From an uncultured Nocardioidaceae bacterium (GTDB lineage Bacteria; Actinomycetota; Actinomycetes; Propionibacteriales; Nocardioidaceae), in the NCBI GenBank assembly GCA_902805845.1, contig CADCUI010000016.1, forward strand, positions 1-48,893: a DNA stretch of 48,893 nucleotides. The letters are read 5' to 3'. Every line of letters begins with the position of its first letter. Position 1 is the stretch's first letter. The notes beneath the pieces are model-generated. The model was not told where the DNA came from, searched no databases, and saw only the letters and a list, made by a program, of their open reading frames with translations. Below are positions 19,811 through 25,681 of this stretch, in pieces. The translations under genes were made by a program, and so were the position numbers.

Positions 19811-19924
19811 TCAGCGACCGAGGTTCAACAGCACCGTGAGTAGGACCGACAGGCCGACGGAGATGAGGATCATGACCAGGCAGCCGACGGCGCCGCCGAC
19901 GGGACGGATCCGGACGGGGCTCAT
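19811..19924 (-). CDS. 37-residue single-pass membrane peptide
   Basis: The peptide MSPVRIRPVGGAVGCLVMI plus 18 more residues has a basic N-terminus, a Gly-Gly turn, one membrane helix and a C-terminal LLTVLLNLGR. Actinobacteria have similar tiny membrane proteins of unknown function. It has no ribosome binding site of its own; instead a 14-codon frame with a good binding site ends inside its ATG (ATGA), suggesting coupled translation. Confidence 0.6.
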   Translation of the reverse strand: MSPVRIRPVGGAVGCLVMILISVGLSVLLTVLLNLGR

Positions 19925-20106: not shown

Positions 20107-21831
20107 TCAGACGCCCTCCTCGAGGCGGCGGCCCGTCAACCGCCGCCACAGCCACCCGGACGGCACGAATCGACCGTCGAGCACGTACTCCGTCGTCGGA
20201 GGATGGGTCAGCGTCGCGTCGAGGGAGCGACGTCCTGCTGCCTGCGCGGCGAGCAGGAGCTCGTCCCCCGGTTCGAGCACGACCTCGTCGTCCGGCGCCG
20301 CGATGCTGTCGTCGCCTCGCATCAGCGCCAGCACGACGACGTCGAGCTGCCGGTCGCGGTCCTCGGGGTCGCGCAGGACGGCCCCCAGCGGGAGCCCGTC
20401 CGCCAGCCTGGGCAGGAGCGCGGGTGCCTCCTCCTCGACCAGGCGGAGGCTCCACAGGTCGGGGGTCTGGGAGCCGCAACGCTCGCGGATCTTCTCGATC
20501 ATCCCGTCGGCCCACTCGTCGCCGAGGTGCGGCACCCGCGGCAGGAACTGCATGAGCGCGGGGTTGGCGAGCCGGGCGAGCACCTCGTGCACGATGACCT
20601 CCGAGGGCATCATCCCGAAGTCGACATGGGATGCCCGGTAGAGGGCGGCGTTGGCGGAGTGGTTCTGGAGGGTGACGAGGAAGAGCTCCGGCCGAGCCCG
20701 ACGCGCCACTTCGAGCAGCCACAGGTTCGCCATGTCGTCCTGGGAGGCCGCGACGAACGCGACTGCCTCGTCCAGGCGGGCCGCGGCGATCGCCTCGGCG
20801 TCCCGCCGGGCCGAGTCCCGGCCCATCGGCCCTCCTGCCTCCACCACCGAGACGTCGATGCCCTCCTCCCGAAGGTCGGTGGCGAGCTCCTCCAGCAAGG
20901 GGCCATGTCCACACACCACCCACCGACCGCGGGGCATCGGGTCCTCCCGCGGCGGGATCGGCGTACCGGGGGTGCTGGTGAGCCAGATCATCAGCTGGTA
21001 GGCGGCCGGCGACCGGAAGATGATGCGCAGGTAGTTGCCGAACCGGTCCAACGGGTTGACCACTTCCCAGGCCCCGAAGGCACGCATGCGCTCAGCGACC
21101 TCTCGGGACGACGTCCGGGCGATCACGGGCAGCCCGGGACGGAGCAGCCCCGTGGTCATCGTGACGTCGAGGTTCGTCTCGTCGTCACCGGCCAGCGCCA
21201 CCACGCCCTCACAGCAGGCGTGGGTGATCCCCGACAGCAGCAGGGTGCCGGTGTCCCGGGCGTCGCCCAGCAACGCCGGGGCGTCGGCCCGGTAGGCGTC
21301 GAGCTCCACCGCCGCCACGCGGTTCTCGTCGTCGTCGAGGACGACGAACCGCCGGCCCATCTCGTCGAGGGAGCGAACCAGCCGCTTGGCGGAGTTGCCG
21401 TAGCCCACGACGACGAGGAAGGGCTCCACGAGGGACTGCACCTTGCGGGCGACCTGGCGACGCGCCAGGGCCCTGCGGAACGCCCGGTCCTGCATGAGCG
21501 CGAGCATCGACCCGATCGCGTAGGCCCAGCCGATCACCGAGAGGAAGATCGCGACGGTGACCCACATCCGCTGCTGGGTCGTCAGCTCGTAGGGGATCTC
21601 GCCGAAGCCGATCGTCGTGGCGGTGTAGCTCATGAAGTAGAACGCCTCGAAGATCGTCATCCGGCGGGACGTGCCGTCGGCGTCCTGTCCCGGCAGCAGC
21701 GAGAGGCCGAGCACGCTGCCCGCGAAGATCACGATGAGGACGATGAGCGGGACGCGCATCCGTCGCAGCACCGTCGTCAGCCCTGACGAGACGCGCGGGA
21801 CCCTGACCTCGTCCGGTGGCGGCTGGTGCAT
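20107..21831 (-). CDS. Potassium channel with two RCK/TrkA-type domains
   Basis: 574 residues. Two membrane segments (about 27-47 and 88-110) flank a pore loop with the selectivity-filter-like TTIGFGE (72-78), where the usual GYG is GFG. Two cytoplasmic RCK-type Rossmann modules follow: EPFLVVVGYGNSAKRLVRSL from about 135, and GRWVVCGHGPLLEEL from about 325. A TrkA_C-like end contains the acidic DDEVVLEPGDELLLAA. Duplicated RCK modules suggest a BK/GsuK-like gating arrangement. The gene starts five bases after the small membrane protein gene, so the two form an operon. Confidence 0.88.
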   Translation of the reverse strand: MHQPPPDEVRVPRVSSGLTTVLRRMRVPLIVLIVIFAGSVLGLSLLPGQDADGTSRRMTIFEAFYFMSYTATTIGFGEIPYELTTQQRMWVTVAIFLSVIGWAYAIGSMLALMQDRAFRRALARRQVARKVQSLVEPFLVVVGYGNSAKRLVRSLDEMGRRFVVLDDDENRVAAVELDAYRADAPALLGDARDTGTLLLSGITHACCEGVVALAGDDETNLDVTMTTGLLRPGLPVIARTSSREVAERMRAFGAWEVVNPLDRFGNYLRIIFRSPAAYQLMIWLTSTPGTPIPPREDPMPRGRWVVCGHGPLLEELATDLREEGIDVSVVEAGGPMGRDSARRDAEAIAAARLDEAVAFVAASQDDMANLWLLEVARRARPELFLVTLQNHSANAALYRASHVDFGMMPSEVIVHEVLARLANPALMQFLPRVPHLGDEWADGMIEKIRERCGSQTPDLWSLRLVEEEAPALLPRLADGLPLGAVLRDPEDRDRQLDVVVLALMRGDDSIAAPDDEVVLEPGDELLLAAQAAGRRSLDATLTHPPTTEYVLDGRFVPSGWLWRRLTGRRLEEGV

Positions 21832-21836
21832 GCGCC

Positions 21837-22223
21837 TCAGCGCCGCTGGAAGGAGACCGTCTCGATGACCAGCAGCACCACCGAGACGACGTTGGCGAAG
21901 AGCGCGCCGCCGGAGAGCGACACGACGACCGCGGTCTCCTCCGCGGACAGCGCGCCTCCGCCGACGTTCGTGGCGTAGGTCCAGATGACGGCCGCGGCGA
22001 TCAGCTGCACGTTGGCCACGAGGCTGGTGGCGAGGTGGACCGCCCCGATCTGGGTGCGGTCGCCGAACTTGAGGACCGTCGCGACGAGGTTGACGACGAC
22101 CGCCGCGAACAGCTCCCACGGGCTGTGCAGAGCAGGGTCGGCGATGTCCCCGATGAAGAACCCGAAGTTCAAGGTGGCGGCGAGCAGCACGAAGAAGCCG
22201 AAGACCACCTTCTCCAGGTTCAT
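21837..22223 (-). CDS. Small four-helix membrane protein paired with the channel (DUF6394-like)
   Basis: 128 residues with about four hydrophobic segments. Distinctive parts are MNLEKVVFGFFVLLAATLNFG, FFIGDI, LFAAVVVNLVATVLKFGDRT and HLATSLVANVQLIAAA. From memory it resembles DUF6394; that assignment is not certain. ATG 22223 has GGGAG upstream. Only five bases separate its stop region from the channel start, so a channel accessory subunit is inferred. Confidence 0.7.
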   Translation of the reverse strand: MNLEKVVFGFFVLLAATLNFGFFIGDIADPALHSPWELFAAVVVNLVATVLKFGDRTQIGAVHLATSLVANVQLIAAAVIWTYATNVGGGALSAEETAVVVSLSGGALFANVVSVVLLVIETVSFQRR

Positions 22224-22438: not shown

Positions 22439-25400
22439 ATGCGCTCGTCGCGTCGGGTGGTCACGGTGCTCTTCGCCGACCTCGTCGGCTTCACCGCGCT
22501 GTCCGAGCGGCTGGACCCCGAGGACGTCGCTGCCGTCCAGCAGGCGTACTTCGCTCGTGCGCAGGAGACCCTGCAGCGCCACGGGGGTGTGGTCGAGAAG
22601 TTCATCGGCGACGCCGTCGTCGGCAGCTTCGGCGTGCTCCGCGCCCGGGACGACGACGCCGAGCAGGCCATCCGGGGTGCCCTTGACATCGTGGCTTCCG
22701 TGCAGGAGCTCGGTGAGCTCTTCGAGCTCGACGAGCCGGGACTCCAGGTGCGGGTGGGGGTCAACACCGGCGAGGTCCTCATCACCGGCGACCGTGACGG
22801 CGACTGGCAGCTGACCGGCGACGTCGTCAACGTGGCGTCGCGCCTGCAGTCGCGGGCACAGCCGGGGTCCGTTCTGGTCGGTCCGGACACCGCCCTCGCG
22901 GTCGAGTCGTCCGTGCTGCTCGAGCCGGCCGGCGGGATGACCCTCAAGGGCAGGACGGAGCCGCTCGACGTGTTCAACGTCGTCGCCCCCCGGTCCGCGC
23001 CCGTCGGCCGCACGACGTTCCTCGGCGGGGCGTCCGGCGTCGTCGGACGGGAGTCGGAGACCAGGCTCCTCCTCGACGCCTGGACGTCATCGGACACGGT
23101 CGCGCAGAGCTGGCTGCTCACCGCTCCTCCGGGCGCCGGGAAGTCCCGCCTCGTCGCCGAGCTGGCCGACCGAGTCACCGCGCAGGGCGGTCAGGTGTGG
23201 GCGACGGCGGCTGCAGCCGGCGACAACGGCGGCTACCGATGCGTGGGGCACTTGATCCGCCAGAGCCTCGGGCCGGCCGCCGACTCTGCGGACCTGGTGG
23301 GCGAGCTCGAGGCTCGTCTGCGTCACCGAGGCGCATCCGACCTCCGCGCGGCGGTCAGCGCCGAGCACGTACGCGCGCTGCTCGCGGGCGAGGAGCTCTC
23401 CGCCCAGCCCGAGGACCTCTTCGCCTCGTGGCTCGCAGTCCTCGAGGCGGCCGAGGGGGACCACGCTCCGGTGTGGATCGTGGAGGACCTCCACATGGCA
23501 GGTCCGGACCTGGTCGACTACCTGCACACGGCGCTCGCGGCTTCCACCGGGTCGAGGCGGCTGCTGGTCATGACGTCGCGGCCGTCCCCCTCCGTCGAGG
23601 CCCTCGCCGCCGCCGAGCCGGCGCTCCAGTCGCTGCACCTCGACCCGCTGTCGGTCGGCGCCACCGGCGAGATGGCGGAGGCACTTCTCGGTCGCGGTGT
23701 GCTGAGCGACGAGCTGGTGACGACGATCGCCGAGCGATCGCGGGGCAACCCGCTGTTCATCGAGGAGCTGTTCCGCTCCTGGGCGCAGGCGGGCGTGCTC
23801 CAGCCGCTCTCCGGCGGGAGCTGGCGGTTGGCGGGCACCGGATCGACCGACCGGGTGCCGACGACCGTGCAGTCGGTCTATCTCGGCCAGCTCGACGGGC
23901 TGCCGGACCAGCCTCGCCAGGTCATCCATTCCGGATCGATCCCGGGGTACACGTTCCCTTCGGCTGCGCTGCCGGTCCTGGAGGTGGCCGACGCCGGGGC
24001 CGGGCTGCAGCTCCTGACCGAGCTCGGTCTGCTCATGGGGCCGCACGACGCCGACGTCCACCCCGCCTCCTACACCTATCGCCACGGACTCCTTCGTGAG
24101 GTCGCCTACGCCTCGCTGTCGCGGGTCGACCGGGCCCGCCTGCATCTTCGCTTCGCCAGGTGGGTGGACCAGGGCCGGTCCGGGAACGACGCCGACGAGG
24201 CCGTCGGCCGGCACCTCGCGGCGGCGTACGACAACCTGCCGCGGCTGGCCGAGCCCCTGGAGGAAGGGCTGACGCGCAACGCCCTGGCGGAGGAGGCCGG
24301 GGAACGGCTCGAGCTCGCCGCCGAGCTGCACCGGACCAGCGCACCACTGCGAGCCGCCGTGCTCCTCGAGCGAGCCCTCGCCGTTGCCGGCGGCGCGGAG
24401 CCGCGGGTCACGCTGCGGCGGAGACTCCGGCTCGGCGTGGCCCAGCTGCGCTCGGGGCGCCTCGAGGACGCGATGCGGACCTTCGCCGCTGTCGGTGACA
24501 CGGCACGGCTTCCGGAGGACGTGGCGGCACTGGTCACCGCTGCGCTCGGCTACGAGGACGCGCTGTTCGCCAGCCGCCTGCCACGTGACACCTGGGGTGC
24601 CGACGGCAGCCGTCTTCTCGGGCTCGCCCTCGAGGCGGGGCCGCCCGACGACCAGCGCGCCCGGCTGCTGGCCGCGCTGGGCCGGACGCAGGTCTACGGC
24701 GGCGCCGGGCTGGAGAAGGGGCGTGCGACGTGCGCGCAGGCCGTCCGGCTGGCCACGGCGTCGAGGTCGGACTCGGCGCTGGCCTACGCGCTGCTGGCGT
24801 CCCTCGCGGGGATGACGGGTCCCCACCTCGGCAGGGAGCGCCGTGAGGCACTGCGACTCGCCGGTGAGGCAGCGCGCCGGGCGGACGACGGGGAGGCTGA
24901 GCTGGAGACCGCTCGGCTGCAGCTCGTCGAGGCGCTGGAGGAGGGCGACGTCGAGGCCTCGGAGGTCGCACGATCCCGGGCCACCGAGCTGGTCGAGGAG
25001 CTCCGGCGGCCGCTCTACTTCTGGTACCCGCCGATGTGGGAGGCGATGAGGGCGCTGATGAACGGCGACCCCTCGTCGGCTGAGCCGCTGGTGCGCACCT
25101 TCCGGGACGAGGGCACGCGCTGGCACTACCGGGACGTCGTCCCTGTGCACATGGTGCAGGAGCTGGAGCTGTGGACCCTGTCCGGTGACCCTGCGCGTGC
25201 GCTGCCGCTGTTGCGCTCCCTGTTCGCGCGCGGCGCGGACCCGTGGGCATCCGTGCTGGCCGCGGCGCTGGCGCGCTCCGGGGAGGCCGAGGAGGCCCGG
25301 CAGCTGTTCGGGGCACACATCGAGGGCAGCCTCGAGGACCCGAAGGACCTCAGCTGGACCTACCTGGCCGCGCTCCGAGCCGAGGTGGTCGAGGCCGTGG

Positions 25401-25681
25401 GCAACGCGTCCGCTGCTGCGGAGCTGTCGCGGCTTCTCGAGCCGTGGGAGGGACGGGCAGTCGTCCTCGGGTCGGGGGCGGTGTGCCTGGGCGCGGTCTC
25501 CCACTTCCGGGGACTGGCGGCACGGACGGCCGGCGATCTGGACACCGCCGTCAGGTGTTTCCGGGACGCCGTCATGATGAACGACAGCATGGTTGCCCGG
25601 TGGGCCGCGGCAAGGTCGCGCCACGAGCTCGACCGGACGGTGGCCCTGACCGAGGCGTCGACAACGAGGAGCATGCGATGA
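22439..25681 (+). CDS. Class III adenylate/guanylate cyclase fused to AAA ATPase and TPR-like region
   Basis: 1080 residues. The N-terminal cyclase domain (1-185) has LFADLVGFT with metal-binding Asp14, KFIGDAVVG with Lys54 and Asp58, and GDVVNVASRLQ with Asp128, Asn131 and Arg135, so catalytic residues appear complete for adenylate cyclase. An ATPase domain follows, with Walker A APPGAGKS at about 229-236 and a Walker B-like WIVEDLHMA. A long helical region with TPR-like pairs reaches the C-terminus. This is the cyclase-AAA-TPR regulator type; no DNA-binding domain is visible. AGGACGG precedes ATG 22439. Its stop overlaps the next ATG (ATGA). Confidence 0.9.
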   Translation: MRSSRRVVTVLFADLVGFTALSERLDPEDVAAVQQAYFARAQETLQRHGGVVEKFIGDAVVGSFGVLRARDDDAEQAIRGALDIVASVQELGELFELDEPGLQVRVGVNTGEVLITGDRDGDWQLTGDVVNVASRLQSRAQPGSVLVGPDTALAVESSVLLEPAGGMTLKGRTEPLDVFNVVAPRSAPVGRTTFLGGASGVVGRESETRLLLDAWTSSDTVAQSWLLTAPPGAGKSRLVAELADRVTAQGGQVWATAAAAGDNGGYRCVGHLIRQSLGPAADSADLVGELEARLRHRGASDLRAAVSAEHVRALLAGEELSAQPEDLFASWLAVLEAAEGDHAPVWIVEDLHMAGPDLVDYLHTALAASTGSRRLLVMTSRPSPSVEALAAAEPALQSLHLDPLSVGATGEMAEALLGRGVLSDELVTTIAERSRGNPLFIEELFRSWAQAGVLQPLSGGSWRLAGTGSTDRVPTTVQSVYLGQLDGLPDQPRQVIHSGSIPGYTFPSAALPVLEVADAGAGLQLLTELGLLMGPHDADVHPASYTYRHGLLREVAYASLSRVDRARLHLRFARWVDQGRSGNDADEAVGRHLAAAYDNLPRLAEPLEEGLTRNALAEEAGERLELAAELHRTSAPLRAAVLLERALAVAGGAEPRVTLRRRLRLGVAQLRSGRLEDAMRTFAAVGDTARLPEDVAALVTAALGYEDALFASRLPRDTWGADGSRLLGLALEAGPPDDQRARLLAALGRTQVYGGAGLEKGRATCAQAVRLATASRSDSALAYALLASLAGMTGPHLGRERREALRLAGEAARRADDGEAELETARLQLVEALEEGDVEASEVARSRATELVEELRRPLYFWYPPMWEAMRALMNGDPSSAEPLVRTFRDEGTRWHYRDVVPVHMVQELELWTLSGDPARALPLLRSLFARGADPWASVLAAALARSGEAEEARQLFGAHIEGSLEDPKDLSWTYLAALRAEVVEAVGNASAAAELSRLLEPWEGRAVVLGSGAVCLGAVSHFRGLAARTAGDLDTAVRCFRDAVMMNDSMVARWAAARSRHELDRTVALTEASTTRSMR

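Follow-up and report, generated by a model that had tools for sequence, protein, structure and literature searches.

DUF6394, a family of small four-helix membrane proteins encoded beside RCK-gated potassium channels, as a likely auxiliary channel subunit

The stretch of DNA analysed here (the window) comprises 48,893 nucleotides from an uncultured Nocardioidaceae bacterium (contig CADCUI010000016.1). On its reverse strand it encodes a small membrane protein and, directly downstream of it, a potassium channel. The coordinates of both genes include the stop codon:

21837..22223, (-) strand: DUF6394 gene, encoding a 128-aa four-helix membrane protein (translation, PF19931, AlphaFold2)
20107..21831, (-) strand: gene for a two-helix K+ channel with a TIGFGE filter and two RCK (TrkA_N) modules, 574 aa (translation, Pfam, AlphaFold2, Foldseek)

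The small gene runs from an ATG at 22223 to a stop codon at 21839-21837. Its translation into 128 residues and its AlphaFold2 model (mean pLDDT 93.5, pTM 0.87; 84-sequence alignment) both bear out the four-helix protein of a preliminary description of this DNA, the helices spanning residues 3-23, 35-52, 58-86 and 94-126. The same description had named DUF6394 as a possible family, and the protein is indeed a member: residues 33-122 match positions 2-89 of the 89 in the Pfam profile (PF19931) with 123.9 bits against a curated cut-off of 30.8 (E 3.5e-36). Neither this protein nor the channel is named by NCBIfam above cut-off, and no paper naming DUF6394 or PF19931 was found in the literature consulted; the protein query P0001 had no match in viral contigs, phages or plasmids. 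An N-in/C-in topology with four helices is predicted, and by the positive-inside rule both termini as well as the loop from K52 to R56 are likely to be cytoplasmic. The fold had no Foldseek match at E 0.001 or better. In VIA-align 2 it is matched by many unrelated four-helix bundles at Z 10-14, with soluble four-helix bundles, designed proteins and pieces of cytochrome oxidase subunits listed at similar Z, so that the likeness is to a common arrangement only. When compared with the sequences of PDB chains by phmmer, the protein had one hit only, a construct fused with the transporter SLC18B1, and its E of 2.1 is what chance would give. An internal duplication (TM1-2 versus TM3-4), suspected by eye, found no support (hhalign probability 0.5%). 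The last helix (94-126) contains no arginine or lysine, R127 and R128 coming after it; as it thus lacks the basic series of an S4 segment, DUF6394 is unlikely to be an S1-S4 voltage sensor of the classical kind.

The channel gene starts with an ATG at 21831, its last codon ends at 20110 and its stop codon occupies 20109-20107, giving 574 aa from that ATG. The two-helix channel with a GFG filter and two RCK modules that had been described earlier is recovered by the Pfam profile Ion_trans_2 (33.6 bits, cut-off 22.5, E 3.6e-8), by the filter TIGFGE in the translation and by two TrkA_N stretches (E 7.3e-28). In the AlphaFold2 model (pLDDT 90.4, 78 sequences) long helices at residues 26-45 and 85-113 flank the pore loop. 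The best PDB fold match of the model is GsuK (Foldseek, E 6.3e-22), which is also the best match at the sequence level (phmmer, E 5e-10 over 213 residues). With an Ion_trans_2 pore and K+ filter followed by C-terminal RCK domains, the protein is by sequence and predicted fold one of the two-helix RCK-gated potassium channels of the GsuK/MthK type. Downstream of the pair lies a 37-aa single-helix ORF (about 19814-19924), whose only match with a good E-value is to the window's own locus.

The five bases reported between the two genes correspond to 21832-21836, which separate the first gene's stop codon from the start codon of the channel, though this exact spacing is as uncertain as the channel start codon itself, because in many relatives the homology sets in only around residue 13-22 of the channel as translated here. 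We scanned named genomes (contigs of one genome per species) for the small protein and obtained at least 443 confirmed matches, of which the best 80 were kept. In all 80 of these best loci a channel relative lies directly downstream on the same strand; in two of them (L011, L046) the contig ends inside the channel and in another (L080) the channel reads in two pieces. Of the 83 loci L003-L085, 79 have a channel start that could be called (mechanically). The small gene and the channel are -4 to +112 nt apart in these 79, the median being 12 nt; 14 of the pairs overlap and 75 lie within 30 nt. In two further loci (L154, L158) about 590 and 700 nt separate the channel match from the small gene, with the order and strand kept. 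The preliminary description had taken the close spacing to imply equal expression. Given this range of distances, and a channel class that is encoded in the opposite order (see below), that claim is not supported; what close spacing points to is joint transcription of the two genes, possibly with coupled translation, rather than any stoichiometry. L154 and L158, both from Pseudomonadota, have a repeat-bearing stretch, seen in the translations, between DUF6394 and the channel, and upstream of DUF6394 they encode a Kef-type antiporter (L154:1-1320, with Na_H_Exchanger and TrkA_N; L158:1-1254, recognised by eye).

Samples of whole phyla and orders gave comparable linkage. In Actinomycetota, the phylum of the window, DUF6394 occurs in 4 of 396 genomes including the window's own, and the channel is present with all four. 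In Pseudomonadota 29 of 398 genomes match DUF6394, 28 of them over the cut-off, and each of the 32 over-cut-off copies adjoins an RCK channel; 20 of these copies are of a long form with the channel downstream, and 12 are of a shorter form with the channel upstream. Two order-level samples, chosen around genomes having DUF6394, contained 49 positive genomes out of 250 and 30 out of 200, with a channel beside 49/49 and 30/31 copies. None of these counts can be read as independent events, because the samples overlap partly and include near relatives. One candidate (L114), which at 21.6 bits falls below the PF19931 cut-off, was dropped as a non-member. No gene fusing DUF6394 to the channel was seen in the loci examined.

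The association is also found when the channel is used as the query. Among the 246 Actinomycetota genomes searched there were two close matches, along with five distant channels at E 4e-21 to 7e-23. The 299 Pseudomonadota genomes, in most of which at most 4 or 5 candidates per genome were scored, yielded 18 close matches (E 1.2e-75 or better) with none from there to 1e-20. DUF6394 lies upstream of all 20 close relatives in these 545 sampled genomes, and of 18 out of 18 if two genomes chosen for their DUF6394 (the window's own and G412) are left out; it is found in none of the loci of the five distant two-helix RCK channels of the Actinomycetota sample. The co-occurrence in other genomes that the preliminary description had named as its check is therefore present in both directions.

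A conserved pair of neighbours might be no more than incidental operon conservation without functional meaning, and the close relationship of several of the sampled genomes, whose copies are not independent, lends this explanation some weight. A survey of neighbours covered the 66 of the 80 named loci that have 6 kb on both sides, with opposite-strand ORFs overlapping the pair excluded. DUF6394 and the channel are present in all 66, whereas the other neighbours of the window recur in three (FabG), one (DnaJ) or none (HIT, the cyclase and the gene at 25.7-26.5 kb); when the flanks of five of the loci were searched for instead, each ORF other than the pair turned up in at most 10 of the 66. As the tested neighbours are thus common to at most three loci, while the pair itself is kept between Actinomycetota and Pseudomonadota and its association survives a swap in gene order, an incidental pairing is very improbable and we strongly disfavour it. 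The cyclase gene of the window (22439-25681, (+) strand) is divergent from the pair and encodes a large protein with class III adenylate/guanylate cyclase and AAA ATPase domains and weak TPR matches; this cyclase-AAA protein had no match in the 66 related loci.

The swap in gene order concerns the short form of DUF6394, which in 12 of 12 genomes is encoded after a single-RCK channel (in one, G571, the channel reads in two pieces). These short-type channels are only 26-29% identical to the long-type channels in eight of nine loci, and 37% identical over a 98-residue piece in the ninth. We searched for the short-type channel in 48 genomes of one order, chosen around one of its 12 short-form genomes. 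Close matches (E 1.5e-104 or better) were obtained in 12 genomes, which are exactly the 12 that have the short-form DUF6394, and the other 19 genomes of that order, with distant channel matches only, gave no PF19931 match. Going by its sequence, the next gene downstream looks like hemA (glutamyl-tRNA reductase) in three of six short-form loci inspected (L105:1-1228, L110:1780-3048 and L112:196-1458).

Certain copies depart from this pattern. Virgisporangium ochraceum has a second copy (L116:4941-7603) downstream of TrkH and TrkA_N/TrkA_C genes, which form a pair of the KtrB-KtrA type, with no two-helix channel within 7.6 kb; this copy has lost the otherwise conserved E37. A full-length copy in another genome (L219:2268-2720, genome G1238) has no potassium gene that could be seen in 3.2 kb, and is possibly a drifting duplicate, the same genome having another copy that is partnered by a channel. 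In an Accumulibacter genome a 41-residue DUF6394 fragment (L051:2974-3102) lies about 3 kb upstream of an intact pair and is perhaps the remnant of a duplication. The unpartnered L219 copy would suit an explanation in which DUF6394, perhaps a small transporter or a membrane sensor, serves the same physiological response as the channel but acts alone and shares only its expression with it. The conserved polar residues E37, K52, R56 and N111 could form a site of its own, and potassium physiology could be the common factor, as one copy adjoins a KtrB-KtrA type pair. A free protein should, however, be seen away from channels more often than this one is: almost every copy examined goes with one or other of the two channel classes, and the samples contain no close channel relative without DUF6394. 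We accordingly regard a stand-alone function as improbable.

The two partners also differ in their conservation. The 84 aligned small proteins are 66-81% identical to the window's and share 44 invariant columns out of 129, while the channels (78 sequences) are 36-62% identical to the window's. This difference is biased, the loci having been selected for resemblance to the small protein, and the comparison was repeated on 18 pairs found through the channel. In these, identity to the window's proteins is 46-70% (median 58) for the small protein and 33-41% (median 35) for the channel, the small protein being the more conserved partner in every pair. Such conservation was judged unusual for a mere helper, and bears on the possibility that DUF6394 is a dedicated assembly or insertion factor that aids folding or tetramerisation of the pore and stays outside the working channel. 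A small membrane protein encoded just before the channel, as in the long-form loci, would fit this role, and obligate pairing would suit a chaperone equally well. As the small protein is nevertheless more conserved than its supposed client, and the short forms are encoded after the channel in all 12 genomes, we consider a dedicated assembly factor unlikely.

Taken together, these observations make it likely that RCK-gated potassium channels have in DUF6394 a transmembrane auxiliary subunit. This is the most economical reading because the gene almost never strays from the channel, no sampled close channel is without it, its association extends to a second channel class with the reverse gene order, and its conservation exceeds that of the channel itself. 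An accessory subunit that sets gating or assembly, as originally proposed for the window, is thus the best-supported reading. In such a system the two genes would probably be co-transcribed, and the small protein, presumably in one copy per channel subunit, would pack on the outside of the channel pore (pre-M1, M1 and M2). There it might set how easily binding of nucleotides or ions to the RCK gating ring opens the pore, and it may be needed for a stable, functional channel.

Conserved segments that stand out in the two proteins are:

22050..22070, (-) strand: codons 52-58 of the small-protein gene (K-F-G-D-R-T-Q), the conserved loop between TM2 and TM3, with K52, G54 and R56 kept in both subfamilies
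21748..21765, (-) strand: codons 23-28 of the channel gene (R-R-M-R-V-P), a conserved segment ahead of M1
21520..21528, (-) strand: M2 motif W-A-Y of the channel, codons 102-104, with W102 in 172/172 distinct partnered long-type channels

At 18 positions of the small protein, conservation is at least 95% among the 172 distinct long forms as well as among the 12 distinct short forms, including E37, K52, G54, R56, G60, S67, G106, A107, A110, N111 and S114; K52, G54 and R56 are invariant in the long forms and reach at least 95% in the short ones. In the pre-M1 segment of the long-type channels P28 is present in 172 of 172 sequences, R23 in 170, R24 in 167 and R26 in 168. The 12 short-type channels have the pre-M1 sequence R-F-x-x-P, with the proline displaced in one (L237), and all 12 have W-x-Y in M2. 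Neither the pre-M1 proline nor the M2 tryptophan motif could be seen by eye in any of five unpartnered two-helix channels. The pre-M1 segment and the M2 tryptophan motif are put forward, from sequence conservation, as candidate docking elements, though the motifs shared by the two partnered channel classes may equally reflect shared descent.

A more specific proposal, which we hold to be possible though rather doubtful, is that DUF6394 is the detached peripheral domain of a split ion channel. It would be a separate four-helix sensor that docks, via the M2 tryptophan and the pre-M1 RRxRxP, at the place taken by S1-S4 in six-helix channels. Gating by nucleotides through the RCK domains would thereby be supplemented with a signal from the membrane, such as lipid, tension or redox state. 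If so, whole classes of prokaryotic K+ channels would have an obligate transmembrane auxiliary subunit. Most of 18 distant RCK channels that were read in the Pseudomonadota order searched above for the short-type channel, all from genomes without DUF6394, have by eye an S1-S4-like N-terminus of their own before the pore, which fits such a division of labour and is no proof of it. The five unpartnered two-helix channels of Actinomycetota have neither DUF6394 nor an S1-S4-like N-terminus.

Contact between the two proteins was also approached by covariation in 172 distinct paired sequences (effective number about 97), which recovered plausible pairs within each protein. In mean-field coupling the means of the top 10 and top 50 inter-protein pairs lie above those of all 16 within-clade shuffles, and the observed maximum was exceeded by two shuffles. 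In pseudo-likelihood coupling the top-10 mean between the small protein and the pore is 4.8, versus 5.2 for the cytosolic RCK1 taken as a negative control. Among 30 helix-pair blocks the enrichment between TM2 of the small protein and M1 of the channel is high by both methods and was reached by 3 of 50 within-clade shuffles; that between TM3 and the M2-RCK linker was reached by none of 50, yet under the second method just one of the 40 highest-scoring pairs falls in it. Because the signal at the pore is no stronger than that of the RCK1 control, the covariation neither supports nor excludes a contact.

Among known systems the closest in architecture is GsuK of Geobacter sulfurreducens (PDB 4gx0, 4gx1, 4gx2 and 4gx5), which like the window's channel combines a two-helix pore with two tandem RCK domains per chain, with only about 15-18% identity in structural alignments. 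MthK, a lower-ranked fold match, likewise has a two-helix pore opened by an RCK gating ring, but carries one RCK domain per chain where the window's channel has two, and we know of no auxiliary membrane subunit for it. MthK and KcsA, like GsuK, serve as prokaryotic models of channel gating and are studied as single proteins. KtrAB and TrkHA are RCK-regulated potassium systems, and one DUF6394 copy follows TrkH and TrkA_N/TrkA_C genes as noted above; in these systems, however, it is the RCK protein, located in the cytosol, that forms the extra subunit, whereas DUF6394 is a small membrane protein. A working analogy is provided by the BK beta and KCNE proteins of animals, small membrane proteins that sit on the outside of the pore and tune gating. 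No sequence relation of DUF6394 to them was found among PDB chains with phmmer, and beta4 of BK has two membrane helices against four in DUF6394. To our knowledge prokaryotic two-helix K+ channels have not been described with a transmembrane auxiliary subunit, and the parts of the literature consulted yielded no paper on an auxiliary or accessory subunit of this kind for prokaryotic potassium or RCK channels. If the auxiliary-subunit reading is true, a Pfam family so far without an assigned function would gain one, and bacteria would offer a simple model for the tuning of a pore by auxiliary membrane subunits; if whole classes of RCK channels have an obligate membrane partner, they will have to be studied as complexes.

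GsuK was purified and studied alone; ADP and NAD are reported to activate it and Ca2+ to inhibit it, and its single-channel activity could not at first be detected, low open probability and small conductance being named as possible causes (PMC3510474). Given this initial lack of detectable activity, channels of this kind might be missing a partner. The authors attribute the weak K+ selectivity of GsuK partly to a Phe that replaces Tyr in its filter (PMC3510474), and this Phe is shared by the TIGFGE filter of the window's channel. TIGFGE is found in 145 of the 172 distinct long-type channels, and the position after the first Gly of the filter is occupied by Phe in 147 of the 172 partnered channels, by Tyr in 23 and by Leu in the other 2. 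In view of this variation and of the role ascribed to the Phe of GsuK, K+ selectivity may vary within the channel family.
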